Part shown: one piece after another, positions 11,956 to 51,125 of the stretch
Layout of the letters: each line of letters opens with the position of its first letter
Numbering within the stretch: position 1 is the first letter of the stretch
NCBI GenBank assembly: GCA_021234155.1
Contig: JAJEKV010000034.1
Coordinates: 9,561,614-9,625,613, forward strand
Source: Isoetes taiwanensis
Lineage: Eukaryota > Streptophyta > Lycopodiopsida > Isoetales > Isoetaceae
Length of the DNA stretch: 64,000 bases
Direction of reading: 5' to 3'
Notes under the pieces: generated by a model
What the model was told of the DNA's origin: nothing
What the model saw: the letters and a program-made list of their open reading frames with translations, nothing else
Databases searched by the model: none
Translations under genes and position numbers: made by a program

Positions 11956-14900
11956 TTTCTACGAATTGGGTGGAGGAAATATTGATAAACTCGGCAAAGT
12001 ATGATGTTTTTTTTTGGCAAAGTGAAGATCTGTCATGATCTTTGCGCAGTTTTCCTAGGTGGGTTATTCCACATTTTGATTTCTACATAAAGTTAAAGCT
12101 CTTCCTCTTCGGCATGTACTTATAATATGAAAAGGCACTCTTGGTTTTCTTACTTTTTGCTGTCTAGACCGCACTTCATGATCTGTTAGTGCGTCCTGCC
12201 ATGTTCTATATCTCTATTCGTTTTGCTTCTCTTAAAAAATTGCATCAATCTAGGGGCAATCTCTTTGTTCTTTCCTTCGCATATTTAAATCGATGAGCTT
12301 TTTATTCGTTGATTCTTTCAAAATCTTAGAACCCAGCTGAAAAAATCCTCTCTTATGTCTGGAAACCTAGTTGATTACTCCGTGTAAATGCCTGAGAATC
12401 TGAAAACCCAGTAGAAAAATCCTCGCCTATGTCTCGTTTCTCGTCATTTCTGTGTCAGAAGTTGCAACGCTTTGGATTTTTCTCATATTTTGCATGATTT
12501 GGTTAGCAGCTTTATTGAAGAAAGGGAATTTAAGCTCATATCTGATCTCAACTGTAGATTATATATTTATTTGCTGCCTGCGCCTCTGTAGCAGGCAGGC
12601 ATAATGCAAACGCTTTAGGCCATGCTGAGCATAAAACTGTTTGAATTTGGTTTTTGGATCGATCCAAGTTTTGGGTTTATTCAAGGCTGTCTGCAGCACA
12701 TGCATGCACATGCACATACTGTTGTAATTAGCCAACACTTTTGTGTCTATCCAAGGCTCCTGCAACACTATTCTAGGAATTGGCTTCTTTTTTTGGATTT
12801 AAGGCTGCAACACTGTGTAAGGTAGATCCACAATCTACATCCAACTTTTAAGTTTTTACTAAGGCTGCAGAATGCACACTGTTCTAAAATTGAGCTTTGG
12901 ATTCATAGATTGGATTCATAGATTGCTAGGGACTGCAGAACAGTGTGTTGTAAATTTGCATTTGAATTGATCTTTTGGATCGGGTTTAATTCATCCTTTT
13001 TTCTTTTTCCTTTTTCCCATGATCACTCTGTTACACTTTCTGACTGCATTCTGACAGATTTCATTGCAGAGTCTTGCAAACAATGAATGTCTGCAAGAAT
13101 ATATTGGATTCAATCAATGCTTCCTGGTTATCATGCACTGGCATTTGACTTGAAAGCAGAGCAGTGCTGCATTGAAGATCAAATATGAAAAATTGTGGTC
13201 CTGTCAAGCTTATTGGGTTGCAGATTTTTGCATCATTTCAGCTTGTGCAGATCCAAATTTTGTGAGTATATTACATACCAGATTCAAGTTAGTTTATTAT
13301 TCAATATAGCTGCTGCAAGAATCATTGTGTACCCTGCGCCTAAAATGTCTGCTACTTTTATTCTAGTTTAACAGCTTAAACGCCATGATTCTCTTGAAAT
13401 GAGAGCTCATGCATGAGAGATTCATTTCTCTCTCAATCAGCAGGTCCAAAACATCCTGCTGAATCTTGTAGAACAGGTCACTGTTTCTGTTTTCTGAGCA
13501 AAATGGTGGTCAAAATAGTGTTGTTTTTGCATTTTTTTTCATGCCAATCTTCAAGAGCTGGCTTGGATGGCAACGCATGTGCTGATTATTTTAACAGGGT
13601 GGTCTTCAGGAAGCTTAAATTTTGTCTTGTGGCCATTTTTTTATGAGTAAAGTGTTCATATGATTTGGAGCAATGAGTAAAGTATTGATATCTTTGCAAG
13701 GACAGAAACAAAAACAAAATGAGAGGCTGATGAATAAGGTAGGCATTCATACATCCCTGCTACTTGAAGAATCATTTGCAAATAATGATTGTGTAAATAG
13801 GAAGTGCAGAAGGTTTATAATAAGCGAAAAGATGGCTATGGCAGGCACCTCAAATGAATGCCTCCTTGTTTCTGTACTCTTGTACAGTTTTTATCTTTTC
13901 ATATTTTAGTTTCATGAAGTCAACCTGTTTCTTTGTCTTTTGTGTGTCAACCAGAATATTTATCCATGCCTTTTGATTATGACATTTGTATAATTGCCAA
14001 ACCTTGAACCTCTCTCCTCTAGGGGCTGCTACAAAGACATCTTGATGTTGTTTATTGGTTTTGGAAGCCCAAGACAATCTAGCAACCATAATTCTCTACA
14101 ATTGATCAGAAATCTCAAGACTTTCCTAGAGTTTTATCTCGACAAAAGGAATGTGATTATTCCTTGTCGATCTTAAACAGAAAATAGGAAACCTCCCTTT
14201 CATGGAGTGCATCTTAAAAATGAAAAATGAAAAATAAAAAAACTCTCTTTCATGGAGTGAGTTGGAGGAATTGTCTACTCTTGCCATTGGCATATGCAAA
14301 CATGAATGGCAAGCAATTTTTTAACTCTAGACAAGTATGTTTCATATTCGGGAGAAGAATTAGACATTTATTTTGTAAGATTAGAATGCCCTTAGCTCTT
14401 AAGTTTTAATTTTGAAATCAATTATCTAAGTTTTTGCTTACAAAAAAAAGTGTTTTACCACGTTTTTCTTTTGTGGATTATTTAACTCGGTATACAAAAA
14501 GGCAAGACCCCACTTGAATAAATAACATGTAATCATTGATTCATAATCACACTTGATATAAAAAGAACCAAGAACTGCGGCTATCACTTGATGATAGGCC
14601 CAAGAACCCTAGAAAAAGATAAAAAAAGAAACACTTGCTCCTCATTTAGAGTTGAAAGCTTAGAATATTTTCTAGATAGACACCACCACAGTATCCCTGT
14701 TGTTGACCGTACTTGCTTACTAAACTCTAGAAACACATGAAGCCATTTATATACATTTTTTTAGATTTAAAGTGGGATTCATTGTCCTCCGTGACCTTTA
14801 TTGTTTATTGGTGATATAAAGAAGCTTTACAATAGAACATTTGAGTTGCTAAGTTTTAATGATTTTTTTATGATTGCGAATTCTCAGTAATTTATAGTTA

Positions 14901-16960: not shown

Positions 16961-18858
16961 CAGGGGGTTTTCTTTGTGTTTTTGTACGCTTTTCACTAAG
17001 GTTTTCCTATGATTTCGTGATGTATTCAAATGGATGTACTAATGCGTACATCTAGAGTGCACCATTTCTGAGCCATTGATTTTAGCCTTTTTTTTTCCAA
17101 TGGTCAACAACCAATGGCTCACAACAAAAGCCCTTTTTTGTGCGTGTGGTGCATAATGGTCAACAACCAATGGCTCACAACAAAAACCCTCTTTTTGTGT
17201 GTGTGGTGCATAATGGGCACATGAAGGGCTTGAAGGGCGCATGTAGTGCAGTTTCCCCGCCGGCAACACATTTCTTATCATAACTTTTGATCCAGAGCTC
17301 TGTTTGAGATGATTTTTATTGAGTTGGAAAGCTCTCTCCGAGATCTTTTTGATAGTATATGATATGGATATGTTTGGTTAATTAAGTTATCTATGCTAAA
17401 ACATCAATTTTTCGGCCGGGTTGGTAGGCTTTCACATCCTACCAGCTGATTAATACAGGATTGCGCTATTGCATATTGTTTTATAGCTCATTCCGAATGA
17501 AGCTTGCAAAAAATTACCATGCATTTTTAGATTTTGAGGCAGTTATTAAGCAAATTCCAAGGCTTCTAGATTCTTGTGCTAACAAGCAGTGTGTATGGTG
17601 CATAATGGGCACATGAAGGGCTTGAAGGGCGCATGTAGTGCAGTTTCCCCGCCGGCAACACATTTCTTATCATAACTTTTGATCCAGAGCTCTGTTTGAG
17701 ATGATTTTTATTGCGTTAGAAAGCTCTCTCCGAGATCTTTTTGATAGTGTATGATATGCATATGTTTGGTTAAGTTATCTATGCTAAAACAACAATTTTT
17801 CGGCCAGGTTTGATAGGCTTTCACATCCTACCAGCTGATTAATACAGGATTGCGCTATTGGATATTGTTTTATGGCTCATTCCGATTGAAGCTTGCAAAA
17901 AATTACCATGCATTTTTAGATTTTGAGGCAGTTATTAAGCAAATTCCAAGGCTTCTACATCCTTGTGCTAACAAGCAGAAAAGTTTCCCACTTTGGTTTC
18001 TCACCACAAGAATCCATGGAGGCCAAAGGCTGCTGTTAAATTCCAGTTCAAAAATGTTTATGTATGGGTGTTGCAAACTTTATGACTTTCAGAATAATGG
18101 GATCAATCTGCCCTATCTTTATGGTAACTTTTACTTATGTTCTATTTGTTTTATTGTGATGAAATTCAAAAGCTACAGGTGATGAAAGCCTCAAATGAAT
18201 TCTAGTTTTTTTCTGGTTTGAATTCTAAAATTTTTTTGTCACGGGAGGGGGGGCGTCCTAAGGCCCGAAGGGCCAAAAATTTTTTTGCAACACAAACCAT
18301 TAACATCCAACATATAAAAAATAAATCCCCCAACACATAACAACTAACATATAACAACCATTGACATTAATAACCAACACATAACTACCATTGACATTAA
18401 TTAACACAACCATTGGGTCCAACACATTTAAATTAAAATCCCCCTTAAACCCCCTTTGGTTTGGGTGCATATTCACACGGGAGGTGACGTAGGGCAGCGA
18501 GAGCCCTCATAATTGTATTTTGCACGTACAAAATCAACACCATATAGTATTCCGCTTGAAATCTTATAGTATTTTGCGAATCTTGTTATACAGCATAGCA
18601 AATTTTGTACTTGCATACCGCACAAACGAGGAACTTTACATACGGTGTAGATTAAGGAATAAGGGGTGAATATGCCTATCCAACAGCTCTCGTTGCCCGG
18701 AGTCACCCCCCGTGTGAATATGCACCCAAACCAAAGGGGGTTTAAGGGGGATTTTAATTTAAATGTGTTGGACCCAATGGTTGTGTTAATTAATGTCAAT
18801 GGTAGTTATGTGTTGGTTGTTAATGTCAATGGTTGTTATATGTTAGTTGTTATGTGTT
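16961..18858 (+). repeat. 1.9-kb dispersed repeat R2, copy 1
   Basis: Starts GGGGGTTTTCTTTGTG and is nearly the same as 45720-47597. Inside it a unit of about 390 bp is tandemly duplicated (from about 17201 and again from about 17591; each begins near TGGTGCATAATGGGCACATG and ends near TGTGCTAACAAGCAG). After this come a unique stretch and the left and right arms of a fold-back element; here the right arm is cut short at 18858. The frame at 17850-18182 is preserved in both copies, but so is the non-coding DNA around it, and I recognise no domain, so I do not call it a gene. Confidence 0.85.
18289..18858. mobile_element. Fold-back (MITE-like) element, right arm truncated
   Basis: The left arm 18289-18488 (beginning AACACAAACCATTAACATCC) pairs with the right arm 18702-18858 in reverse complement. 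The right arm stops about 43 bp short compared with the complete copy at 47025-47637. The loop between the arms has no coding content. The truncation joins directly to the sequence leading to the HAD pseudogene. Confidence 0.8.
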
Positions 18859-19930: not shown

Positions 19931-21352
19931 ATTTTTATTTTAGTCTTAACCTTAGGTTAGGAATTTTTAATTATGAAAATGAATTGCAATAGTTGGGAAA
20001 CAAATTGAATACAGTATATATACTAAGGTACGGTAGATATCTGAGGAAAAATAGAGGGAATATTTGAACTAGAATAGCAGAGCTATGATTAGAGGAGATA
20101 AATTAGATAAGAATCTATAAGAATCGGAAGATATTTCCTATTAATAGGAAAGCAGAGGATATTTTTCTAACTTTAGAATCCTAATAGTATAAAAAAGGTT
20201 CTTTTGTGGGCTGAAATCCAAGCCTCTACCAGCACCAACATAGGGAGAGAAATCTGAACTGGTGGGTTAACGGGAGCTAAAACCCATGGGAATCTGTGAT
20301 GGCGTGGAGCCATTAATATTGGTTTATTGTTTGTTTTTTCTTTTCCTTGCTTGTGAATCTTCTTTTTTCCATAAGAAACCATTGTTGGGTGAATGGATTC
20401 ATACCTTTGTGGGGAAGCTATGAAGCCTTGTGTTTACACTCGTATGTCGAATACCATTCTCAAAACCTCAATAGCCATAGTTGAATCCAATATCTTGATG
20501 CCCTGTATCTTCTCCTTCGCATCAAATTCATGGATTATGATGAATCACCATATCTCACATCTATATTTGCTTTAAAATCAGCCATGTTCCTTAAGATCCG
20601 ACTTCATTCTGGCCTGTTCCAATCCTCTTGGTCATTCCAATATGCCCAGCGCACAGCAAACCTCTGTATTCTTCCTTTATTTCCTTATTCATCCTCTTTG
20701 ATGGTTATTTGCCTTTTTATTTCATCAAAAAGCTCATAGTCTAGTTGGTTGGTATCTTCAGTTGTTGTCTAGAACACTCGTCTTTGTCTCACTCTTCTTT
20801 TTAACGTTGGACGATGTATTTCTTTTACTATGTATTTCTTTCCTATAGATTATTTTGTAGTTATATTTTGCTTGTTTATCTTTGAGTTCTTATTTATTGT
20901 GGTTGTACATGGTTTAAGCGAATGATTATAATAAAATTAAAGATTAACTGCTTGAATGAACCCGCCCCTTTGTCGATGCCGAAGGGGTCCAAGCGAAAGA
21001 GCAACGTGCATATTGGTGATTGGTATGTAAGTGTATATCGTGTCGCAAACGATATACGGGTGAACTCGGGTGAAGGACTGATCATCTGTGGACAATACTA
21101 ACTGATGAAGTTGTGTTATGATGATGTGTTTATTTCTCTCCAGATTACTTTGGACCCAGGTGACAGTTACCCACTTAGTCTTTTTTCAGGACTAACCCCA
21201 CCCTTACTTCTTTTTATCTTCCAGATGGAGTAGAACCAGAAGATGTCGCTGACCGGTAAAATCGACTAAGAGCTTTGGAGCTTCTTACACGTTGCCTTCC
21301 ATCCATATGGTTGTGCACGTGATATGCATGACATTTTGATTAAATTCTTTAG
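19931..21352. other. No supported gene
   Basis: AT-rich DNA with short, domain-free frames. I see no repeat or RNA gene I can name. Confidence 0.4.
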
Positions 21353-21733
21353 TGTTCCCTTTCCTCCTTTCGCCACCCTCTTCCCCTTCTCCATGTGCCC
21401 ATTCCCCCTCCCTTTTTCTTTTTTCCTTTTCCCTTTTCTCATGCTCTTTTTACCCTTTTTTTTTCCCTTTTCCCACCCTTTCCCTTTTTCCCTCTCCTCT
21501 TTTCCTCTTCCCCTTTTTCCCTTCCATTTCCCACCCTTTCCATCTTCCCCTTTTCCCGTTGTCCTTTTTCCCTTCCATTTTCTCCCTCCCCCCTTTTTTT
21601 CTTTTTTTCTTTCCTTTTTCCCATGCCATTTTTTTCCCTCACCCCCTTTCCCCTTTCCCTCTTGTCCATTTTCTTATACCTTTCTGCCCTACACTTTTTC
21701 CCTTTCGTCCTCCCTTTTCTCCTTTTCCCTTAA
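21353..21733. repeat. 380-bp polypyrimidine tract
   Basis: Almost pure C and T on the plus strand, built from variants of CCCTTTTTCC. Three plus-strand frames stay open through it only because C/T codons never form stops, and they encode repetitive Phe/Pro/Ser/Leu peptides; these are not genes. Long mirror-like polypyrimidine runs can adopt triplex (H-DNA) structure and expand by replication slippage. Confidence 0.9.
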
Positions 21734-21749
21734 AGGATAAAGCATGACC

Positions 21750-28489: not shown

Positions 28490-31080
28490 TCACAGATTCT
28501 GCAGTACTAAAACATTCTTAGTAGGAAGCGGTTTATACTTATTGTGGCAAACTGGGATTAGTTCATAATATTGTCCTTCAATGACACTAGTGCCAGCAGA
28601 GTATTCATTTCCATAGTCATCAATTGAATCTTCTTCCAATGCATACTTTTCCCCGGTGCACATGAGAACATAGTATGAAACACCTTCCACATTGTCCGGT
28701 GGCCGCAAAAGACACAAATACATCTCAAACAAATTTCTGATTGTCATCTAAACCAGCCTCATCCTCTCAAGATACAAAACATCCACATCATTTTCAGCTT
28801 CAACACGAGAGGCAATATGATCCGTGGGCTCCAAACTTTTAGAGACCATTCTCCACAATGTTTAATGTTCTCACAATTCAACTAATTGAAGTTCATACAA
28901 GCATCACAAAAGCACGAGAGTGGTCTCGTGAGATAGCAACTTTGTTGGATCTCTTTGGGTTTATAGTTGACATGAGAATGTATCTGCTGAGTAATGTGTA
29001 AAGTCTTGCAATTGAATGCTTTTTGCATGTTCACATCTGTTTTTCCAACCTCCCAAAACACCCTTTCACAATCCGATTCCTTGGCCGTTAAAACCGCACA
29101 AGTTGTCGCAGACTGCCACCGGCATGCCATTTTGTTTTCTCTCGCCGCTCTCAAGCCACAACTTTGCTATACCAGCCTACCGCCATCATGTGTGCCTTTC
29201 CCATGGCGGATCCAAAGAAATTCCATATCACTCGAATTTTATTTTCAACATGGTATCTACTGATTCCATACCATGCCCGTCTTGATTTGAATTGAGATGC
29301 ACAACCATCCGACCACACATAATGAAGGTTTATGTGTCCACCTCCATTATTCTTAAGCCACCCCAAATGTAATTTAAAACCATGTTGCACAAAATGAGTG
29401 TCATGCTTCCCGTCATCCCAAAACATAGAAATGCACCGCTTTTTTAAGCTTACCTTCTATTTTCATCATTGAAATATGGACCAAAATACTAATTTGATCA
29501 GGATTCCAATGCTCGGATTGCACTTTACGTCCCTCGGTTTCAATGTGTAGTTCTCTCGCAAAGTCAACAACAGACAACACACTATTATCCCGGGGAGTTT
29601 CTCAACACATCTTTTAAACTATTTGCTCGGCCAAGCAGTCAGTAAAGTTATGATCTCGTAAACTTAGCAAGCTGATTTTTCATGTTCTTTAACAAAACAG
29701 ATGCTTTGTCATTCTCGATCAACTAATCTAAGCCTTCGGATGTACCTTTTTGGATGGCTCATTGACATATGCATATACTTGCGGTCCACATTCTCAATTC
29801 CATCTTTCTCGTTTGGACAGATGTCTAATTTCTTCACTCCACATTCATCACATTCACCTTTGATGCATTTTAGTTTATGCCATTCATCCGTCACATATTT
29901 TCACAAAACCTGACCTCCACAAGATACTAACATTATCAAAGTCTTCTTGTTTGCTTGACATACTCCATTGTTTTCTTTGGGATGCATGATAATCGCAGCA
30001 AAGCAAGTGCAATTAATAAGCTAATTTTGGTATCGGGATTACGATATACAAACCGTTGATAAAGCTCGATCGCAATAACAAAAGCATTAAAGACCATGTT
30101 AGCAAAATGATGTCGGCAACCAGATGCCAAAAGAGTATTGAACTATACTATTGTACAATTAATGTATGTTCTATGTACATAAAATGTCCATCCAACAGTT
30201 CCATCGACTCATATCTTGACATCTAATGTACATCAAGACATCTAATGTACAAGCGGTTCAGCTTCCATCGATTCTTATCAGACATCCAATGTACATCTAA
30301 TGTACATCTAATGTACATCTAATTAACGTTCCAATATTAGTACATCACATTAATGGTACAATATTAGTACAACTAATATACATATGTACGATTTGTTTGG
30401 CTTCATTACCTGAAAGTACACTAAAATGTAAAATGATGTAATTTTGATATTCAAGTACATGTAAATGCAGCTGCATGGACATGTAAGTGTTAATGGATGT
30501 ACATCTAAAAAGTACCTAATAGCACATCACTGCAAGATTTCTGCTACTATGTAAACAATGTAAAAATATAAACAATGTAAAATGCAATACATTTCATGAA
30601 AACCATGTGTATTCATTAACAGGTCACTTGGAACAGAACTAGAATGTACAGAAGAAAGTCATGAAAGAATTTTGGAAGAAAACATAATCTCCAAAACTGA
30701 ATTGATTCAATTACAAGAGCAAACCTGTGAGATATCAAGGTATTGTATTGCTTGTGTTCTCCTCTTCATGACATCTCTAACCTTTGGTGAAACTTTGGTA
30801 TTGTCAAGCCAAAATTCACTTAAACGACATTTGATTGAATCATCGATTCTATTTGATCTTGGCATCCTTCCCCGCCAAAGCCCATACATTTGCTCCACTT
30901 AATGACATTATCTTCCTTCTTGTGCAGCTTTGGATAAATTTCTTGGTTGTATCTTTAGCAATTTTGAAGAAACATTCTTGTTTATATCTTCTTTTTTTTC
31001 CAACAATCATTGATAACAAATGAATGTTTTGCACCAATTTATCTTTGCTATTAGCAGACTTTTTACTTCTTGAAGCCCAT
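28490..31080 (-). pseudogene. Transposase relic with WSDGCASQFKS motif (family T1, copy A)
   Basis: Minus-strand frames follow one protein that matches the relic at 48.6-51.1 kb. 30707-30898: GRMPRSNRIDDSIK, then FWLDNTKVSPKVRDVMKRR. About 29480-29580 in another frame: SVLSVVDFAREL and QSEHWNPDQIS. 29151-29426: FWDDGKHDTHFVQHG, then YVWSDGCASQFKSRRAWYG. At about 29185-29215 the open frame reads SAMGKAHMMA, but one base over it reads HGKGTHDGG, which equals the SHGKSEHDGAG motif of copy B, so there is a frameshift. 28490-28780: C-terminal domain with YYVLMCTGEKYALEEDSIDD. The conserved acids in VDF, WSDG and HDG suggest a DDE-type, RNase-H-like transposase; similar proteins occur in animals and plants, but I cannot give a superfamily name. 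Confidence 0.68.
30165..30500. repeat. TGTACAT-rich tract inside transposase relic
   Basis: The unit CTAATGTACAT occurs several times (for example 30221-30260 and 30290-30322), with many scattered TGTACAT words. It separates two coding blocks of the minus-strand transposase relic, so it is probably intronic. Confidence 0.6.
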
Positions 31081-31619
31081 CTTTCAAGTTTCGATCATTG
31101 ATTTCATAACAATAACTTCGGAAGGATTTCCAATTACAGGTTCGAAAAAAGAAAAAAGCCTGTCATCTTGCAACAAACGAGCACAAAAAACTAATCTTTG
31201 ATCCGGGACGGAAGTGTTTGCCAAAGAATCGAGGATGCAATCCCGAGACATTTGCCAACACGCCGCTTTATTTGTTTTGTGGCATAACACCGCCAATGTC
31301 GATATACTTGCGCTTAGAACCATCACTTCCATTGGAATTCTCACCCTCCATGAACAGATTGAAATTGATTTGTATTTTTGTAGATTCAATTGGCATGTGT
31401 TTGCTTCCTCGGAATTCGCTCGTGTTCGGGCCCCGTGAAAGGGGGAATTTCGGAAAGGGAGGGACGGATCCATTCGAATTGGTTCGGTGGTTCGGTGGTT
31501 AACCAAGAATTTCGGGGGCACTGTCAGGGATGATCTTGCAATCATTGCATATCTGACACAAAACGACAAACCATAGTATCTTGATGTACATCTAAAATGT
31601 GCCCCAAAAAAGCACAAAT

Positions 31620-31922
31620 TCGTCCTTCAATTCAGTACGATGTACGTACACCCTTTCATGCTTTTACCCTTTATAATAACATTCTGTCAGAATAATTTCT
31701 TCAACCCCAAATACATTTCTCCATCCATCCTTATAGTTTTTTAACAAAGTATTTTTTGCTTCAGTGCATTTGAGTACATAAAAATGTACCCCTCCTTCAT
31801 TCTCTTCTTCAACTTTACAATAAAATTGTTACCCACTTCTATCATAGGATTCATTAGATCATCTTCATCCTCTTCTTCGTTCTCAACATCGTGCAAGGCA
31901 TCTTCTTGCAAATCATTGCTAT
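31620..31922 (-). pseudogene. C-terminal fragment of a second T1 element
   Basis: Minus-strand frames give an acidic stretch (HDVENEEEDEDDLMNP), then IEVGNNFIVK, and in the next frame HFYVLKCTEAKNT and VFGVEEIILTE. This matches the C-terminal domain of the relic at 48.6-51.1 kb (VEVGDNFVV, then IIKCTEPKHVVENAF). It lies upstream of copy A, so it comes from another copy. The LTR at 31923 cuts it off. Confidence 0.55.
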
Positions 31923-33314: not shown

Positions 33315-33893
33315 TACTCCCCACGTTGAGTTGATGCTTTCCAATACATCATGAGTCTCCCCACCTTGGAAACCTGCATGATCCCTGTCGGACTCGTTCA
33401 ATGCATTCAAATACAAGAATAACTTTAATGTAACATAACAGTTAGATTCTTTATCATTTGAATATTATTGTTTTACAAAATTATAGCAAGGCGATTAATT
33501 AATGCCTTGCTTTAGACATGTCATTACAGCTCAAGCACATCATAACGTTTCCATGCTTCTTCGTCCCTTATGGTACGCCCTGGCGGTCCATATGCTACAC
33601 GTCCTCCAGCACTGCGCTCCTCCTGTCGTTTTGTCGTTCTATTGGCCTGCAGGTCCACACTATATTAGCATGTTTATTTTATGTAAAGATGGTTATTACG
33701 AAACCACCCTTTTAATTACAATTAATGAATGCAGGCATCACGTCTCGGCGTAGGAAGAGGATGCTTCTTCCATCGTGGCCGTGGAGAGAAGCATCCTATC
33801 ATGCCTAATATGATTTCTATTGCCTACACCTTTCGTCATCCTTGGCGTGGAGGATGGCTTCTTCCTCGTAAAGACTAGAGAAGCACAATTTCG

Positions 33894-36026
33894 TTATTTT
33901 TGAATACCTGAATTTATGCACCATTTTTTAAATTGTCGCATCAATGACTCTTTTTCATACACTAATTGACCCCCCTGCGAGTGCCGCATATGCCTCAGCA
34001 GCATGCACGGGTATCTTGATAATATTGGGTATCTTTTCTTGTTTGACGGCTCCCATGCATAGTCGATAGTCTCTAGTTCTATGCGGTCACTTGCAGTTGT
34101 TGGCCTCCATCTTTTCTTCCAACAATTGGCATAATTAGCTGGGTAGACTTGGTTCCTCATCGGGACTGGCTTCCACCAAGTGACCAGAATAGTCTCAAAA
34201 TTCTCCTTCTTATCATCCATTTGTGGCTTCTCAGTAGCTAGACCTACCCAAGTTGGGCACAACACATCATCAGGGCGTGCCATAATAAACATACCTTTCT
34301 TCAAATCTTTGTATGGATTAAGTTCTGGTACATGTTTGTCCTTCCACGGACCGACATAAGGAGGAGTGATTCTAGCAATGGGTTCCCTCAACCAGTAACA
34401 AGGGTGCTCCAGAAACAGCCAAGTACTCGGCACATTTTACGTCCACAATTGAATATTGGATGAGACTCTTGGAAGAGCTGGGGACGATCACCGGTGACGA
34501 AGGCAGTTACGATGACTTCTGGCCACACACTAGGCAGGAACGTGCTCTACCTGACGTAGTAGTGGTGCAATCTATCATCCCCATCTGGTATGTACCCTTA
34601 TATGAAACCCTTCCTGTTCGGAACTTTGTCAACAACATAGGGTACAGGTGTATTCAAGTTGCATGTGTGGAATTCATACAACAGTTCAGGCATTGTCAGC
34701 ACCTCGGCCTTCTTTAAAGATGAGGATCGATATCCTCATGTGTATGGCCGGGCATCATGAACCCTAGCTCAATCTACCAAGATATACTAGGTAAGAAAGA
34801 TAGGAGAAGACATACCTATTCTTGTTCTGTCCAGATGCGTTGTCCAGCTGCAAATATAATATCCGGGGGAGAGGCTTCATTGATGGTCCCTCTGCCTGTG
34901 GCAAAAAAGCAGGGATGCTGCTATTGGATAGTGGCAACTTTGATTCCAAGGCCGTGGTGTCGCGCAAGGATGATACCCATTTTGGAGCTGATGATTCAGG
35001 CACTGACAGGTGGCCTCCTGCATACTCGTGGACCATCTTTAATCTCTTCAAGATGCTGTTCAAAGAACCTACATGGAAGTTCGAGTCATCTGGCCATAAG
35101 TCCAGGGCAAGGTTCCCATAGCTTCCCTTTCCATGGCCATGAGTGATTGCACCAGTCAATGATGTTTTTAGCTTGTCAAGTCTCCAAAGAGACTTCACAG
35201 ATTGTTGCAATTTTGGAATCATTGTTTTCGCTTGATCCATCTTGTCGTGAATAATACAAAGATATTGGGCAGGATACCTGTGGGAGTATAATCTCCACGA
35301 CCAGTACTGGGTGCGACATGGGGCCTGCTCTAGTCTATGTGCCCTTCTTTGATGATGCATTATCCTCCTCTCTGCTTCATCCTTGGTCTTCAATAACTTT
35401 GTACAGATGACCTCGCACGTATCACATTTAGAGAATGCAATTTTCTTTGCGATACTGACATCCCTGAAGCTCTGCCTCCACGTTCTATGAAACCCAGTCA
35501 GGGATACCTTCTTGCCAGTCAGTGCCATAACTTCTGCATTAACCTCTTCCAGAATGCTAGACTTCGTAAACATTGCAGGCAACTTCCTGATGTTCTCTCT
35601 TATCCTGTCTTCATTCCGGTGGGGTAAAGATTCACAATTTTCCTTGACAAACATGGAAAACACAGCCTCGCATGCCAATGTCGAGGAACGAGGCTTCATC
35701 GTGCCGCAGTTGCCGTGCTCGGCCTTGCTTGCACCCTCAAGGAATTGGGCCTTCCACTTCAAATATGCCGACTTTGAGATCCCGAGACCAAGGTACCAGG
35801 ATCTCTCACAAACGAGATTCCCTTGCAGTACTAGCCGTCCGACTCTTTGACCTTTCATGTTGTTGCCAAGCATGTCATAAACAAAAGTTACATTATCACT
35901 AGATTTCATTGCAAGGAATTCCTTTCGCATGTTAACAACTTGATTCATAGAGAACTTGACGCAACACCTATTTTTGCAGCACAAGCTCCTCCTGTAATTG
36001 AGCATTCTGAGTGATGAGACGAACAA
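33894..36026 (-). pseudogene. Transposase relic with LDNASGQNKN and GHTHEDID (DUF7869-like)
   Basis: A 420-residue minus-strand frame (34764-36026) has a Cys pair region (SKCDTCEVICTKLLKTKDEA), IIHDKMDQAKTMIPK, and near its end LYLQLDNASGQNKNR (Asp about 395). It then breaks: the expected continuation GFMMPGHTHEDIDPHL is found in another frame at 34717-34764 and ends in a stop at 34714. A further frame gives VLTMPELLYEF. The last block, 33894-34433, is the C-terminal part (WKDKHVPELNPYKDLKKGMF, then WWKPVPM). At least two frameshifts and a stop make it dead. LDN..GQNKNR followed by GHTHEDID is, as I recall it, the hallmark of DUF7869 proteins found in plants, oomycetes and animals and thought to be transposon-related. 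The acids in HDKMD, LDN and HEDID could form a DDE-type site (inference). Confidence 0.75.
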
Positions 36027-36263
36027 TCTTCGGTGGCCTCAGAATCTTTCTGGGCTGTCGGGAATGAAAAGTGTAATGTCGTTTCTCATAGTTTGGGTGC
36101 TTCTGGTGCTCTGAGCTACTCTAGCTGGACACTGTATCTGCTTCCTGTTGTGGTGCTGCTGTCAATGTCTCCGAGACCTTCAACACGAACGAAGTCATTG
36201 TTCCACCTCACAAGCATCCCAGGCTTCGGGAGCTGTAAACATCCCTGGCAGCGGTTATTCACT

Positions 36264-36760
36264 TCAGAAGGGGGGGGGGAGGGGGAGGGACCCTTCGGTA
36301 ACAGAAACTCCTACGAACTTCAAACCTAAAAATTGGTCACACAATGCATCATCAGGGCTAGTGAATGATATGAAACCTTTTCCCGCGATAATGGTGTCGC
36401 AAGAGTGCCATATTTCACAATCCATTTCAAGAAGCGTATATCTTGTCAGAGGTTGTGTCTCCTTTCCCACCTCCGCTCACTGTCTTTTTTTCGGGACGTC
36501 ATTAGCAGACGACTCACGAGCATCTTCACTTCTCCAGATAAGGAAGGAGCCCTTGGCTTCTACTATTGTGTTTGTATCTGGAGTCGGCCAAGGAAGTGTA
36601 TGGTGGCCTTCGATCACTTCCTCAACACCAATACTCACTACTCCATTCTGTATTTCCTTGAAGTGACATTGTGTCATTTGCCCCACAACTCCTTTCGCTA
36701 CCAGTAGATCATTAATGAAGAGATACACAACCTGCACAATGATTTCAGTTCTGTTAAACC
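36264..36760 (-). pseudogene. Upstream exon fragments of the DUF7869-like element
   Basis: Two minus-strand frames. 36477-36737 reads VVYLFINDLLVAKGVVGQ and ends GSFLIWRSEDARE, a pattern resembling the DUF8039-type domain found in plant transposon proteins. 36264-36470 reads CEIWHSCDTIIAGKGFISF, which looks like a diverged repeat of the same fold (both have a 'VA/IA-GKG' step). They lie just before the 420-residue frame and share its strand, so they are probably its N-terminal exons. A stop separates them. Assignment is tentative. Confidence 0.45.
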
Positions 36761-36885
36761 CGAATAACGAGAACGAGCAAGCAATGCAAATGAAATAGGG
36801 GCATGGTCATTCAAGGGTTCCACGGACAATCAAATTCGGCGGGTGCCTATTTTCACTTGTGAGGACGATAGATTCTCCTTATTGC

Positions 36886-37268
36886 AAATTGGGCGGCCGC
36901 CGAATTTGCCCAGATGAGGGGGTTTGTTTCCACATTAGTATTAATGCATTCTAGGTCAGATTAGGCGCCCGCCCAATTTGGCCTTCTGGGCATGCCTTGA
37001 TCACGTACAATCTGAACACTGCATGATAAATTGGGCGCCCGCCCAAATTGGCCCTTGGTGGAGGAGAGGACAACCTTTGGGATATTACCATGGATGCCCC
37101 CAGGGGAGTCCTACTAGAACACGAACAAGGAGAGACTCCAAGATCAACTTGGGCGCCCGCCCAATTTAAGGGGGTCTTACTTGCACATGATCATGGAAAA
37201 ACTAGAGATGAACTTTAGGCACCCGCCCAACTTAGCACTGTAAGACAACTTGGGTGCCCACCCGATTT
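36886..37268. repeat. Palindrome array P1: six units of AATTGGGCGCCCGCCCAATT type
   Basis: Six imperfect palindromes lie at about 36886-36907, 36961-36981, 37028-37049, 37146-37167, 37211-37234 and 37247-37268. The consensus core is GGGCGCCCGCCC between AAATT and AATTT. Spacing varies from about 36 to 118 bp, and the sequences between partly repeat (TTACTTGCACATGATCATGG, ACCATGGATG). They are GC-rich islands in AT-rich DNA. The core is not perfectly symmetric, so it has direction; all six point the same way, opposite to array P2. Confidence 0.8.
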
Positions 37269-37544
37269 GGGGAGGGCTTGCTTGCACATCATGATGGAAT
37301 TACCATGGATGTACTTGGGGACAAACACACATGCACTAAAACTAGCGTGCACACATGCTCTGCACACCATCGCCAAGACATGCAAGCACTGCACTAACAA
37401 GCAGAGTAGTTGTAAATCTGACATTAACTGTTAAAGGTCAATCTCCAGAACTGTAACTAAATTTCACTCCAGCAAGCCCTGTCACCCTAGTCGAGCTCCT
37501 CTTGGTTAACACGGCAACTTCTTTACCAATACATATGAAGGGGC

Positions 37545-37615
37545 GTGAATGAAGAGATGTGGATGAATAGACGTGAATGAAAAGGCGTGAATGAAGAGGC
37601 GTGAATTTGAATAAG
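37545..37615. repeat. Short tandem repeat GGCGTGAATGAA
   Basis: The words GGCGTGAATGAAGAG, ACGTGAATGAAAA and GGCGTGAATGAAGAGG follow one another four to five times. It lies between the two palindrome arrays and has no coding sense. Confidence 0.6.
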
Positions 37616-37619
37616 GACA

Positions 37620-38515
37620 AACATAGCCCTTGAGATTAATTTTAAGGCAAATAGACATCGAGCTTTGGTGAATAGAAACTTTTAAACTGTACAAACCTTT
37701 GAAGATTTAGTCGCCATGAGATTTTAAGCGATGAAGATGGTCGGCACCTTGGAGATTCTTGACTAGCTAAGAAGCTAAAAGGATGGATAAGCATTTACAT
37801 TTAAACATAACTTTCCCCCCTAAATTTGAATGTAATTTCCCCCTAAATTTTAAAACAAATTCTCCTGCCTAAACTTGTCAAGCGCGCGCCACGTGTCGTG
37901 GAGTGAATTGCATTAAAAGGGACGTTTGAAATTCAAATTTCATGTGCATTTAATAAAGAGGTCCATATTTAATTCCTCACGGTCAATTATGGAAACGGTC
38001 TATTTTTTTTTAAGATCTATTTATTATAGGCACGACACTTGCATGCATGCATGAAGGGTCCATACATGGCCCCTTTAAAAGCCCTTTCGGCTCTTTGACT
38101 ACAGTTTTGAAATTTTCTGCATTCTCCCTGTTGCCTTGGCGCCTTCTGCTACTCATCACACTGTCGCCTTTGGATCCTCAGGTCGCCAATCATCTTCTTG
38201 TCGCCTTCCTGTCGGCGCCCTCTCCTCCTGAACGAGCTGTCGGCTTCGGATCCCCGTACCTTCGTGCCTTCTGCCCCTCATCCTCTTGTCGGCTTCCTCT
38301 TGGCGCCATCTTCTCTTGATTGCCCTATCGCCTTTCTCTCCCTGTACACTTGGCGACTCATACCAGTTGATGGCATCTTGCCCCACGATAGGAGGCAAAG
38401 GTAACCATGATTATTTGTTTAATATTAATTTGGTAGTATCTCTCAGCGCCTGCTTGATTGATACTGCCACATCCTAAATATAACCCTTGGGGATCCTTAC
38501 TTGCATGGCCCCTCG
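37620..38515. other. Spacer between palindrome arrays
   Basis: No domain-bearing frame. 38085-38395 is C/T-rich on the plus strand with repeated GCCTTC and GTCGCC words, and is preceded by a TTTAAAAG box near 38077-38084 that could be a TATA element. It resembles an LTR or gene leader but I cannot prove either. Confidence 0.35.
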
Positions 38516-38518
38516 AGC

Positions 38519-38940
38519 AAACTGGGCTGGCGCCCAATTTGGCCTCACTGGTCTCTCCTAATGCATATCTCCTTTGAAGAAATTCGGCAGGCGCCCAATT
38601 TTTCTAAAGGGGAGCCTGACTTTCTTCAACCCAACGCATGGCCCATTGAGCAAATTGGGTGGGCGCCCAATTTGTTCTCGGCGGGGGCTTGATTGCTCTC
38701 TTCCTATATGCATAGTCCTGTGAACAAATTGGGCGGGCGCACTATTTGTCCAGAAGGGGACCTTGATTGTGTTCATCTTAATGCATGCCCCTCACAGCAG
38801 ATTGGGCGGCCACCCAATTTGACCTCACTAGTCTCTCCCAATGCATACCTCCTTGAAAAAATTGGGCGGGCGCCCAATTCTTCCAAAGGGAGAGCCTGAC
38901 TTTCTTCAGCCCAACGCATGGCCCATTGAGCAAATTGGGA
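38519..38940. repeat. Palindrome array P2: six units in the opposite orientation
   Basis: Units of the type AATTGGGCGGGCGCCCAATT lie at about 38519-38540, 38580-38602, 38652-38673, 38726-38747, 38799-38820 and 38859-38880, plus a half unit at about 38931-38940. This core is the reverse complement of the P1 core. The block 38541-38660 recurs at 38821-38940 with few changes (both include CTTTCTTCA, CCCAACGCATGGCCC and ATTGAGCAAATTGGG), so P2 also contains a 280-bp-spaced direct duplication. Confidence 0.8.
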
Positions 38941-39032
38941 TCCTGATTGTCAAAGAGGGGGCCACCACTCAACCACAGCCTGAACATTAAATAGCTTTCC
39001 CCCGGGGAAATTCTTACTGGTGTGTAGGAATT

Positions 39033-39603
39033 ATGGCGCGAACAAAACAAACTGCTTGGGTGTGTGGGCCTGGACCAAGATTTGCAGAAGTCGTAGCCGA
39101 AGCAAGGACGAGTGAAGACAAAGAATTATTTGCTGGCATCACTGTAGTGCCGGATGGAGTTATGACTGTAGCTGACTCGTGGACCTGGTGCATCAAGATA
39201 GGGAATTTCCACCCCGGCTCTCAGACGAACCACATAAAGGACCTTTTACTTTACTTTGGCGAGAAAGGGACAACGGAGAATGCACTCAGCCGGAATTCTC
39301 ATTGACATGGAGGTGTCGCCAGATAACAACGACGAGTTCCAGTTGGATGTTGAAGACATCGTGGACAGGGGTTTCGTGCGTTATAAGCTTCCTCTCAGTA
39401 GTTACGAGCCCCAACTCATGATGCAGGCCAGTATCACTGAAAGCCCACATTCTTGCGCTCAGAAAGGATGGGTGCTTGACTCATATGAGAGTTTAGAGCG
39501 GTCTGGCATCAAGAGGCGTTCGGAAATCGTGGATGGCTTTTACGCAGTGCGTCAGTGGATATTTGAGCACACGAAGAACAGATCCAAGGCCTTGTATACA
39601 TAG
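39033..39603 (+). pseudogene. Frameshifted frame beginning with an H3-tail-like peptide
   Basis: The first frame starts MARTKQTAWVCGPGPRF at 39033 and runs 90 codons. MARTKQTA is exactly the start of histone H3. With a two-residue gap a few later positions (G, P-R, A-R, S) also agree, but nothing after residue 30 resembles a histone fold. Near 39290 the sense appears to move to another frame, which carries on as AGILIDMEVSPDNNDEFQLD, IVDRGFVRYKLPLSS and FYAVRQWIFEHTKNRSK to 39603. Together it would be an unrecognised protein of about 190 residues. It follows array P2 by 90 bp. It may be the first exon of a transposon protein. I know no family with this layout. Confidence 0.45.
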
Positions 39604-40070
39604 TATCATGGTAAAACTCAACCCAAAGTTTATGATTAAGTGGCTAAGGCCCAGATATGGGGGATTATTTACATTATGCCATCATTTTAATCAAGCTTTT
39701 TTAATCAAAGTTTCAAGATCATATTAAAATATCAAGCCAAACTTAATATTATTCTTGAAATTAATTTCTTTTTTCCAAACAGACAACTAAGCTTCTTCTT
39801 TTATGATTTCTCTTTCTAACTTTCTTCTATTCTATAGAGGAAGCAATGTAATGTATCTCAACAAAATTTCTTTTTTATGCATTACATAAGATCAAAATTA
39901 AAAGCTTGGAGAGTGCCAGAGGGGATAATTATTAATCCAAGTAGTTGGGAAAGTATAGACAAGAAGCATTTAAGGCATGACTTCTAGGCGCGCACATGCA
40001 AGTGCTTTAGATGCTAGGTGCAGTCGCATTTTTTTGATCACCAGTATAGAATTTACACCCATTGGCGGCC
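39604..40070. other. No supported gene
   Basis: AT-rich DNA with no repeat or domain I can recognise, ending at the LINE tail at about 40075. Confidence 0.4.
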
Positions 40071-45719: not shown

Positions 45720-47637
45720 AGGGGGTTTTCTTTGTGTTTTTGTACGCTTTTCACTAAGGTTTTCCTATGATTTCGTGATGTATTCAAATGGATGTACTAA
45801 TGCGTACATCTAGAGTGCACCATTTCTGAGCCATTGATTTTAGCCTTTTTTTTCCAATAGTCAACAACCAATGGCTCACAACAAAAGCCCTCTTTTTGTG
45901 TGTGCGGTGCATAATGGGCACATGAAGGGCTTGAAGGGTGCATGTAGTGCAGTTTCCGCCGACAACACATTTCTTATCATAACTTTTGATCCAGAGTCTG
46001 TTTGAGATGATTTTTATTGCGTTGGAAAGCTCTCTCTGAGATCTTTTTGATAGTGTATGATATGGATATGTTTGGTTAAGCTATCTATGCTAAAACAGCA
46101 ATTTTTCGACCAGGTTTGGTAGGCTTTCATATCCTACCAGCTGATTAATACAGGATTGCGCTATTGGATATTGTTTTATAGCTCATTCCGAATGAAGCTT
46201 GCAAAAAATTACCATGCATTTTTAGATTTTGAGGCAGTTATTAAGCAAATTCCAAGGCTTCTAGATCCTTATGCTAACAAGCAGTGTGTGTGGTGCATAA
46301 TGGGCACATGAAAGGCTTGAAGGGCGCATGTAGTGCAGTTTCCCCCCCGGCAACACATTTCTTATCATAACTTTTGATCTAGAGCTCTGTTTGAGATGAT
46401 TTTTATTGCGTTAGAAAGCTCTCTCTGAGATCTTTTTGATAGTATATGATATGGATGCTAAAACAGCAATTTTTTCGGCCGGGTTTGGTAGGCTTTCACA
46501 TCCTACCAGCTGATTAATACAGGATTGCGCTATTGGATATTGTTTTATGGCTCATTCCGAATGAAGCTTGCAAAAAATTACCATGCATTTTTAGATTTTG
46601 AGGCAGTTATTAAGCAAATGCCAAGGCTTCTACATCCTTGTGCTAACAAGCAGAAAAGTTTCCCACTTTGGTTTCTCACCACAAGAATCCATGGAGGCCA
46701 AAGGCTGCTGTTAAATTCCAGTTCAAAAATGTTTGTGTATGGGTGTTGCAAACTTTATGACTTTCATTCAAAAATATTTGTGTATGGGTGTTGCAAACTT
46801 TATGACTTTCAGAATAATGGGATCAATATGCTCTATCTTTATGGTAACTTTTACTTATGTTCTATTTGTTTTATTGTGATGAAATTCAAAAGCTACAGGT
46901 GATGAAAGCCTCAAATGAATTCTAGTTTTTTTCTGGTTTGAATTCTAAAATTTTTGTCACACCGGGGGGGGGAGGGGAGGGGGATGTCCCTAAGGCCCCG
47001 AAGGGGCCAAAACAAATTTTTTGCAACACAAACCATTAACATCCAACATATAAAAATTAAATCCCCCAACACATAACAACTAACATATAACAACCATTGA
47101 CATTAACAACCAACACATAACTACCATTGACATTAATTAACACAACCATTGGGTCCAACACATTTAAATTAAAATCTCCCTTAAACCCCCTTTGGTTTGG
47201 GTGCATATTCACACGTGAGGTGACGTAGGGCAGTGAGAGCCCTCATAATTGTATTTTGCACGTACAAAATCAACACCATATAGTATTCCGCTTGAAATCT
47301 TATAGTATTTTGCGAATCTTGTTATACAGCATAGCAAATTTTGTACTTGCATACCGCACAAACGAGGAACTTTACATACGGTGTAGATTAAGGAATAAGG
47401 GGTGAATATGCCTATCCAATAGCTCTCGTTGCCCGGAGTCACCCCCCGTGTGAATATGCACCCAAACCAAAGGGGGTTTAAGGGGGATTTTAATTTAAAT
47501 GTGTTGGACCCAATGGTTGTGTTAATTAATGTCAATGGTAGTTATGTGTTGGTTGTTAATGTCAATGGTTGTTATATGTTAGTTGTTATGTGTTGGGGGA
47601 TTTAATTTTTATATGTTGGATGTTAATGGTTTGTGTT
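45720..47637 (+). repeat. 1.9-kb dispersed repeat R2, copy 2
   Basis: Nearly the same sequence as 16961-18858, with the 390-bp tandem duplication again present (units from about 45901 and 46287). It differs by a small extra direct duplication: a 44-bp phrase with GTGTATGGGTGTTGCAAACT occurs twice at about 46723-46811. Here the fold-back element at the right end is complete. It starts 150 bp after the RING-like locus. Confidence 0.85.
47025..47637. mobile_element. Complete 613-bp fold-back element with 200-bp arms
   Basis: The left arm 47025-47224 starts AACACAAACCATTAACATCC and the right arm 47438-47637 is its near-perfect reverse complement, ending GGATGTTAATGGTTTGTGTT. The 213-bp loop has no coding content. 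This is the shape of a long-arm MITE or fold-back transposon. I could not identify a convincing target duplication, so the exact ends may be a few bases off. The same element occurs, truncated, at 18289-18858. Confidence 0.85.
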
Positions 47638-48639: not shown

Positions 48640-51125
48640 TTTAACCCCATTCATCTCTAAAAGCATTTTCCACAACATGTTTGGGCTCAGTACACTTGAT
48701 AATCCAAAACTCTATGTTCTTTTCATTGTTTGCTTTCGCATTGACGACAAAATTATCACCCACTTCCACAATCTATGCTTTCCATTGGTTGTCACCTTCA
48801 TATTGCACATAGGAATATGATTCTCCATGATATATAGCTTCAATTCTGAATATGTGTAACCTCCCAGCCTCTTTACATGCAAGCATTTATTCCATAAGCC
48901 CTTCCAACAACTACGACAGAAGCAAGACAAACATTTGTGAGCTACCGTAGTGGGTCTGTTTTGACAGATTGGTCTAATGGTGTGTATCTTTGTAGTTCCC
49001 TTCAATGTATCACAGTCATAACGTAATTTCCTGCACACTTTCCCCACCTCTATTAACCAAAAGTGCCTACAAACATAGACATACCAAGTTAGCATTATTT
49101 ACATGAGCACATTTGTACTGTTTGAGTCAGATAACTTATTGTTTGCATACTGGATGATGTTCTTATCTTGCAAGCCTCTCTTTGATATGACGTACCATGT
49201 CAAGAACTTGACCGCATCATCCGCATTACAAAGAGATGTGCTATCCCTCTTTAGCATCTCACTTGTAAGTATTCTTTTTATGACAGCCCCTGCACCGTCA
49301 TGCTCGCTCTTTCCATGCGAGGAGGCAAAGAAATTCCAGCCAATCTGTACTTCATTTTTCTCAAAAAACCTTCCTAAATGATAGAATTCTCTTGAAGACT
49401 TGAACTGCGACGCACAACCATCAGACCAAAAGACATGCCTTGAGTAAGTTATACCTCTTCCAGCCAAATAGTCTGCGTGCTTCTGGAGGCAATGCTGGAC
49501 GAATGAAGAGTCATGTTCTTGATCATCAGACATGTAGAAATGGGTCTCCTTCACCACTTGTGGTCACCAATCTTAATATTTGGAACTTTCCCATTCATGG
49601 CATGCCTATACATAATATGAACTAGCATGGAATATTGATCGTTTCGCTAGTGCAATGTTTGGATTTTAACAGTATAGTTCTCTACGAAGTCAATCGCAGA
49701 GACAATAGTATCTTCTGGAAAAGTTTGCAAGCACTCCTTGAACTGATCAGCTTGCCATCTTGTCGCATAGTTATGAGGAATGAACTGCTTAATTAGAGCA
49801 TTCCGATGCATCCTAAATTCATACGCTGATGTATTCTTATAAACCAACTTCATAACATCCTTCGTATTAACAATTGGCTTTCCACCTTTGCCCACATCCT
49901 TCACGTAAGTCTCTTTCGTCTGCAACATGCACAACAATTCTTTAATCAACAAAAAGTATGTGCAGAAATGCTTAGAAATGCTAAAAAGATACTATTCATC
50001 TTTGATCAACAAACTTATTTGAAGAAATGCTAAGAAATTCAAATAGACACTAATCATTAACATGGTTCATTCACTCAACTAAGGACACTGATTGAAAGAA
50101 ACAACACTTTAAAGATATGCCAAAATACCTTTTCAAAGTTCTTCCAATCCAATCTATTCAATTTACTCCGCTCCTTTGAACATTTGAGGAAAGCCTTCAG
50201 CCCACAGTCCCCGCAATCCATTTGCAAACACGTTGGCTTGTGCCAAGATGTAACATCATCCTTTCGATCGCTCACACTGTTGAAAGTGTACATATATGCT
50301 TCACATATTGGTCCTGGACCACAGATACCGCATTTGCATCTACAGCTAGGCCCATGAAATTTAGAATCTCTTCGTACCTTGTTGACAGTTTGCCTCACAA
50401 ATTCAACTTGCATGTGATAGATGCAGCAACATGTCTCTCGCTCTTTAAGTCGTCTCACGAACTTTGGCTTCAAAGCCTCAAATAACCTTATTCCAACTTT
50501 TATGTTTGGATTATGTTTGGAAATTGTCGTTTGAAACGTTTATAGAATATTACATGCATTGACAAATCTAATTAAGTTATTACATATTTAAAATTGTAGC
50601 ATAACTCATAACATACCTGTGATTCTTCGAGGAAGTGGATTGCATGCAAATTCTGTGGTCTTGCTATCTTCTTGCCATCAAGATTTCTTCTTAATCTGAT
50701 AACTTGTCGTTTATTAGGAGACACCCTTGTCTCAGATATCCAAAAATTATAGATATGCTCATGATTTGCATCAGAAATTCTATCACATCTACCTCTCCTC
50801 TTGAACATTGACCATGATCCTCCAAAGTCAGTAATCTTTCTCTTGTCAAGAGACTCATAACTAGCCTTCCTTTCCAAATTCAGTACTTTTGCCACAACAG
50901 CACGATTGCTAGAAGAACTTACAGCCAGATCTTGCCTGATTTATGTCTTTACTTCTAGCATGTTTATTGATGACGATTGTCTGCTTTACATTATCTACAA
51001 CATGTTTGTAGATATTCAAATCTTTCTTTGCAATCATTTTAAATTCAAGAAGATGTTCTGCTGCCCTAGATCTCCAAAAGACCTTTAGAGTTGCGGAATT
51101 GACATTGTTCAGGAAAGTCAAACAT
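48640..51125 (-). pseudogene. Transposase relic with WSDGCASQFKS motif (family T1, copy B)
   Basis: The best-preserved T1 copy, split by introns or breaks. 50572-50895: FKRRGRCDRISDANHEHIYN, then FWISETRVSPNKRQVIRLRR and HAIHFLEESQVCYE. 50075-50473: a Cys/His-rich part (CRCKCGICGPGPICEAY, then CLQMDCGDCGLKAF) likely to bind zinc. 49647-49952: ATRWQADQFKECLQTF, then AIDFVENYTVKIQ. 49099-49557: FYMSDDQEHDSSFVQH, FWSDGCASQFKSSREFYHLG and FFASSHGKSEHDGAGAVIKR. About 48650-48830: VEVGDNFVV and IIKCTEPKHVVENAFRDEWG to a stop. The three acidic motifs (DFVENY, WSDG, HDGAG) are candidates for a DDE site. The 49.1-49.56 kb exon is uninterrupted, so this copy may be young, but I could not join all parts cleanly. 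No terminal inverted repeats were found. Confidence 0.68.

Follow-up and report, generated by a model that had tools for sequence, protein, structure and literature searches.

Palindrome arrays within a DUF7869 DNA transposon of Isoetes taiwanensis and its gene with a histone H3-like start

What are the two arrays of a GC-rich 22-bp palindrome that flank a spacer of about 1.25 kb in the genome of the lycophyte Isoetes taiwanensis, and in what kind of element do they lie? They were noticed in a stretch of 64,000 nucleotides (positions 9,561,614 to 9,625,613 of contig JAJEKV010000034.1; referred to below as the window) by a sequence-only reading, in which they were described as twelve near-palindromes of two motifs (P1 and P2), six on each side of the spacer. 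The explanations offered were that they are bound by a dimeric protein, that they form the ends of a fold-back element or that they fold as structural RNA hairpins. All twelve palindromes are present where they had been described, together with a weaker thirteenth at 36832 (Table 1). These 13 palindromes were identified within positions 36801-38960 with up to 5 mismatches (the first at 36832, the last ending at 38880), compared with 0.07 on average, and never more than 1, in 200 dinucleotide shuffles of the same region.

Table 1. Features of the transposon copy and of the palindrome arrays in the window
Feature	Position	Strand	Remarks
Left half of DUF7869 transposon copy, right half missing	33881..39662	.	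edges common to many copies
Left terminal inverted repeat	33881..33905	+	5 mismatches to the 25-bp pattern
Gene A (DUF7869, presumed transposase), broken	34044..36899	-	Pfam PF25273; extent by tblastn
Gene A piece inverted in the window copy, 181 bp	34387..34567	.	minus-strand matches to two copies
Weak palindrome	36832..36853	.	4 mismatches
Left array, six 22-mers at 36886, 36958, 37028, 37146, 37212, 37247	36886..37268	.	
Spacer with gene B promoter region (putative)	37269..38518	.	matching part of E6 without codon periodicity; TATA-like site
TATA-like TTTAAAAG	38074..38081	+	in 7/7 copies
Predicted 5'UTR intron of gene B	38401..39027	+	donor GGCAAAG/GTAAC, acceptor TGTGTAG
Right array, six 22-mers at 38519, 38580, 38652, 38726, 38799, 38859	38519..38880	.	
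Gene B start, MARTKQTAW..., with frame change	39033..39662	+	ORF, tblastn in two frames, start pattern

The consensus of the motif is AAATTGGGCG-NN-CGCCCAATTT, in which the arms are self-complementary and the central dinucleotide is free. Its core, GGGCGCCCGCCC, has 19 matches in the window with up to 2 mismatches, compared with 0.44 expected. The separation into P1 and P2 had to be abandoned, since a CC or GG centre is all that gives such a palindrome an orientation, and the centre varies. Among 379 sites collected from 56 loci (202.8 kb; chosen at up to 4 mismatches, with L026 and L029 excluded as duplicates of the copies E3 and E6 introduced below), the central dinucleotide was GG in 143, CC in 126, TC in 30, GA in 25 and GC in 19, others being less frequent. 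The description of the arrays as opposed holds as a tendency in the window copy, but not as a rule, since the centres in the right array of copy E2 are mixed (GG, CC, CC, GA, CC, GC and GA, in this order). The surroundings had also been called AT-rich; the three kilobases that contain the arrays have a GC content of 43-50%, and values across the window range from 33 to 51%. In the whole genome (1,658,258,908 bases in 1110 contigs) 7248 palindrome sites with up to 2 mismatches were counted, a rough figure or a lower bound, and none was found with the reversed control pattern. A related copy reported near position 2443 was recovered as a lone variant with 4 mismatches (2443-2464), around which searches for homology to genes A and B (described below) and for a terminal repeat found none.

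DNA searches revealed that the arrays form the middle of a repeated element, and the window was compared with six other copies of it (E1-E6). This element is a DNA transposon, approximately 12 kb long, and the arrays lie in its interior. In the sequence-only reading both the transposon and its H3-like gene had gone unnoticed. Those copies that were read far enough (E1, E6 and, after subtraction of a 2.8-kb insertion, E2) continue beyond the equivalent of window position 39662 and end approximately 12 kb from the left end. Terminal inverted repeats of 25 bp were found at both ends in all end pairs from two comparisons (8/8 and 3/3), and 4-bp target duplications were exact in 8 of the 11 pairs, the exceptions being E1, E2 and E6. 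The duplications include ATAC, AAAC, TATT, TTAT, AAAT, GATG and GGAT, and the element ends begin with AAGCA.... An origin of the arrays in the LTR of a retrotransposon, a possibility raised by the sequence-only reading, is rejected by these terminal repeats and 4-bp duplications. The fold-back explanation is rejected as well, since the actual ends are the 25-bp inverted repeats and the arrays are internal. Membership in Kolobok/piggyBac was considered and discarded, as the TTAA duplication by which these elements are recognized is absent from the observed duplications. The same applies to CACTA membership (4-bp duplication and AAGCA... ends, as opposed to a 3-bp duplication and CACTA ends).

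The element carries a divergent gene pair, gene A running leftward and gene B rightward from 39033. The gene A open reading frame (ORF) of the window matches Pfam PF25273 (DUF7869, a domain of unknown function) with an E-value of 4.1e-16, and that of copy E2 with 2.6e-42; the gene A product is the presumed transposase. The window copy is defective, with part of gene A inverted, a changed frame in gene B and no right half. In L003/L010 and other copies the right half contains conserved coding stretches with no known domain, located beyond the first exon of gene B. A PDB search with the gene A ORF and an NCBIfam scan of one ORF each of genes A and B gave no useful match, and domain scans of the ORFs found no DNA-binding domain above the curated cut-off in genes A or B. 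A search of the open-access literature for DUF7869 found no paper. A downstream ORF containing VLDxFSGG was considered as a possible methyltransferase; this reading was rejected, there being no Pfam support for that ORF.

Further repeated sequences were observed in the window outside this copy. The stretch 30020-31672 is a repeat with at least 14 further places at 90-94% identity and adjoins a second repeated stretch (29001-30016). Regions 17817-18805 and 46492-47541 contain nearly identical open frames and tandem repeats, which points to an element that has been duplicated inside the window. Several minus-strand open frames lie in succession at 49099-50940, and two of these frames were scanned with no Pfam match above the cut-off.

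The position of the palindromes was then compared among the copies of the transposon. In E1 and E6 the first palindrome lies approximately 3.0-3.3 kb and the last approximately 1.0 kb from the element ends; in E2 the last one is 3.8 kb from the end, and the insertion lies there. With up to 3 mismatches, 22, 24 and 17 sites were found in E1, E2 and E6, and 17, 10 and 10 in E3, E4 and E5, respectively, the latter three copies having been followed only short of their right ends. Clusters occur at about +3.2 to 3.7, +5.0 to 5.7, +6.8 to 7.4, +8.0 to 8.6, +9.3 to 10.3 and +10.7 to 11.4 kb. Fourteen of the 17 sites of E6 fall in stretches without codon periodicity (the coding windows were set by hand from this periodicity), and the other three, at 12415-12627, are located where only about one copy aligns. 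In some copies the gene A frame reads through the first palindrome without a stop.

Upstream of gene B the same order of signals was found in all seven copies, i.e. TATA-like TTTAAAAG, splice donor GGCAAAGGTAA, right array, splice acceptor and ATG. This conserved order places the right array most likely inside a predicted intron in the 5'UTR of gene B. Judged by these signals, the arrays flank the putative promoter region between the two divergent genes and recur in intron-like gaps further to the right. The spacer between the arrays also contains a 14-bp tandem repeat of about 5 copies (37535-37606).

Constraint on the palindromes was assessed in aligned copies, in which the arms differ at 115 of 1920 positions (6.0%), the flanks at 844 of 6059 (13.9%) and the centres at 51 of 192. 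The impression that the palindromes have changed less than the intervening sequence was therefore correct, and the opposite possibility, of a core no more conserved than its flanks, is contradicted. Among the nine pair comparisons, which share sequences, there was one (E3/E5) in which the arms had changed more than the flanks. Across the 379 sites the consensus base is kept in 89-99% at each arm position, a value favoured by the choice of sites with no more than 4 mismatches; the base immediately outside the arms is G in 63% of sites, and further out the signal fades. Arm CpGs were changed in 43 of 384 cases, compared with 53 of 336 for flank CpGs; their decay is nearly as rapid as in the flanks, and these rates give no sign of unmethylated arm CpGs.

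The 24-mer can fold into a 10-bp hairpin (-13.9 kcal/mol), which would suit palindromes acting as hairpins in RNA or single-stranded DNA, whether as a small-RNA source, a terminator or a replication structure. Such a role is nevertheless very improbable. Over the 379 sites, two-sided changes number 16 against 10.9 expected (9 of them compensated), 375 pairs have changed on one side only, and an Rfam scan of the window gave no match. Two-sided changes so close to chance favour recognition of the sequence and not of a hairpin, and the lack of compensatory change disfavours the structural RNA that had been proposed. It is also noteworthy that the spacings within the arrays cluster near 37-38, 43-44 and 67-70 bp, which indicates that tandem duplication built parts of them. 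These spacings would be expected if the arrays were neutral tandem-repeat debris of the transposon, an explanation that is scarcely credible given that, next to gene B copies with 47-51% identity, the 22-24-bp core is unchanged and its flanks are not.

To what extent the palindromes are confined to this transposon was estimated from 15 perfect sites, which were the first listed, on low-numbered contigs, and so form a non-random draw. All 15 link to the transposon family, 14 directly and one (C32) only through its similarity to C112. Seven of the 15 loci align with the element at the DNA level when the palindromes are masked; C20a, C20b, C63, C105, C112 and C130 show homology to gene A or B at the protein level, and at C68 both terminal repeats and a 4-bp duplication were recognized. 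Between their terminal repeats C63, C68 and C130 measure 3.6, 4.1 and 4.4 kb, respectively; these derivatives have exact duplications and have retained palindromes. Moreover, palindromes with up to 4 mismatches occur in the 1.2 kb preceding the gene start in each of the 16 gene B copies that are 47-51% identical to the query.

Retention of palindromes in non-autonomous derivatives, one of which (C68) has a site 210 bp from its end, is compatible with sites at which the transposase (the gene A product) or a TnpA-like accessory protein assembles the transposition complex. We consider this function unlikely, as in full-length copies the sites stand approximately 3 kb and approximately 1 kb from the ends and crowd around the promoter region and the intron-like gaps. 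The placement of the arrays on both sides of a TATA-like promoter region might instead speak for enhancers bound by a host transcription factor (E2F-like or TCP-like), which would drive the element in dividing or germ-line cells; in addition, part of the core was called E2F-like in the sequence-only reading. This is improbable in view of the constraint, which covers a 20-bp dyad with a free centre and is longer than E2F or TCP sites, and of the 15 sampled sites, every one of which lies within the element family or is linked to it.

A fixed dyad with a free centre, clustering by promoters and in intron-like gaps, and retention in shortened copies together give the palindromes the look of binding sites for a dimeric protein. 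That they are protein-binding sites in general is highly probable, and among the explanations first offered the dimeric-protein one is left standing, in agreement with the fixed arms, the free centre, the sharp edges and the absence of a clear compensatory excess. As to the protein, we lean, with moderate confidence and by analogy with a known system, towards a dimeric, element-encoded factor that would keep the element's promoters active. The dyad consists of two AAATTGGGCG half-sites around a free 2-bp centre. A sequence-specific dimer, in all likelihood a product of the element itself, would occupy many of the clustered sites at once and keep the promoters expressed, as VANC does for VANDAL elements.

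Gene B raises the question of whether such a factor might also affect chromatin. Its protein starts with MARTKQTAR, which is the start of histone H3 (host H3 frames were seen at L096 and L097). This start (H3 residues 1-8) is exact in 22 of 32 gene B copies; six others depart from it at one or two residues, and in four this part is decayed. In the window copy R8 is replaced by W. Each of codons 2-9 occurs in two or more synonymous spellings, and the residue is kept in 26-30 of 30 copies, so it is the amino acids that are held and not the DNA. The position of H3 lysine 9 is occupied by valine in 23 of 30 copies. In the remainder of the protein no known domain was found (Pfam, PDB with a gene B profile, NCBIfam); a PDB search with the 31-residue H3-like peptide gave no match, H3 itself included.

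The start is not restricted to this transposon. A codon-degenerate MARTKQTAR pattern has 904 + 984 exact sites genome-wide (1888, again a rough figure or a lower bound), and its reversed control has none. From these, 20 sites were picked for differing codon spellings, of which two are H3 frames (L096 and L097) and 18 are not. Thirteen of the 18 non-H3 frames were long enough to be compared without the tail (five being too short) and form 7 groups, which show no BLASTP match to one another at E 0.001 and none to gene B. Examples of the non-H3 MARTKQTAR frames are those at L081, L084, L089, L093 and L101-L103. Six non-H3 sites were read 4-5 kb onwards. In three of them (L101, L102 and L103) Retrotrans_gag and Ty3_capsid domains occur approximately 3.6-4 kb downstream on the same strand, and we infer that the H3-like ORF and gag belong to one Ty3-type element; for the other three, the domain scan covered the first ORF of L104. 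No palindrome was detected in the six extended stretches at up to 4 mismatches. The H3 mimic is consequently more widespread than the array, and they do not necessarily act in concert. Long tracts rich in pyrimidines and alike in composition were observed in the window (21266-21747) and at L105 (1134-3104), where the tract follows an H3-like start.

That two or more kinds of element in the same genome carry the H3 tail suggests that this trick has been strongly selected for. In the least certain step of the proposed mechanism, the gene B product would supply the chromatin effect by presenting its H3-like tail at the arrays, where the tail would recruit or decoy readers, writers or erasers of H3K4. 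A still broader proposal, tentative and rather doubtful, is one of counterfeit chromatin, in which unrelated DUF7869 and Ty3-type elements would each encode a protein with an H3 start, and that of the DUF7869 element would be brought to its own promoter arrays, creating an H3-like patch that defeats silencing. Counted against the preferred reading, of arrays bound by an element-encoded dimeric factor with the H3-like protein acting there, are the lack of a DNA-binding domain above the cut-off in the scanned ORFs of genes A and B, the motif that is undiversified between subfamilies, the decay of arm CpGs, the E3/E5 comparison, the gene A frame that crosses the first palindrome and the H3-like starts without palindromes.

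Several known systems share parts of this organization. Sola and some other DNA transposons produce 4-bp target duplications, and it is by the length of the duplication and the presence of terminal inverted repeats that the present element is set beside Sola. CACTA/En-Spm elements carry subterminal TnpA sites, at which a protein of the element binds a short motif present several times; the element described here differs in its 4-bp duplications, its other termini and its sites far from the ends. A copied histone tail can capture chromatin factors, as in the SNAG domains, which bind LSD1. Gene B resembles such mimics in that a non-histone protein copies a histone tail, and differs in that the first nine residues, including the initiator methionine, equal those of H3 and in that the gene is multicopy and transposon-borne. 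Among the titles listed in searches of the open-access literature, none describes a transposon-encoded H3-tail mimic.

The closest parallel is offered by the VANDAL21/Hi elements of Arabidopsis and their VANC anti-silencing proteins (PMC5735166, PMC10398659). In VANDAL21, the arrays bound by VANC21 are located in introns and upstream of genes (PMC5735166). VANDAL21/Hi elements share with the present one the organization as a multi-gene DNA transposon with dense arrays of a short motif, partly in tandem, in introns and upstream regions. The differences are as follows: (i) the present element has DUF7869, and Pfam scans of the gene A and B ORFs show no Mutator-type domain; (ii) its motif is a 20-bp palindrome, whereas that of VANDAL21 is the 9-bp YAGTATTAY; (iii) its motif is conserved between subfamilies, whereas VANC targets diversify; and (iv) its second gene begins with an H3 tail, with binding and demethylation as putative activities. 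The array fits a known kind, in which a regulator encoded by the transposon binds arrays of a motif; here the transposon is of a different type and the host a lycophyte. How transposons survive silencing has yet to be fully explained, and VANC is one of the few worked examples of sequence-specific anti-silencing. The DUF7869 element would be a candidate for a second such system, in a lineage probably far from Arabidopsis, combining a precise DNA site with a protein that copies the H3K4 region.
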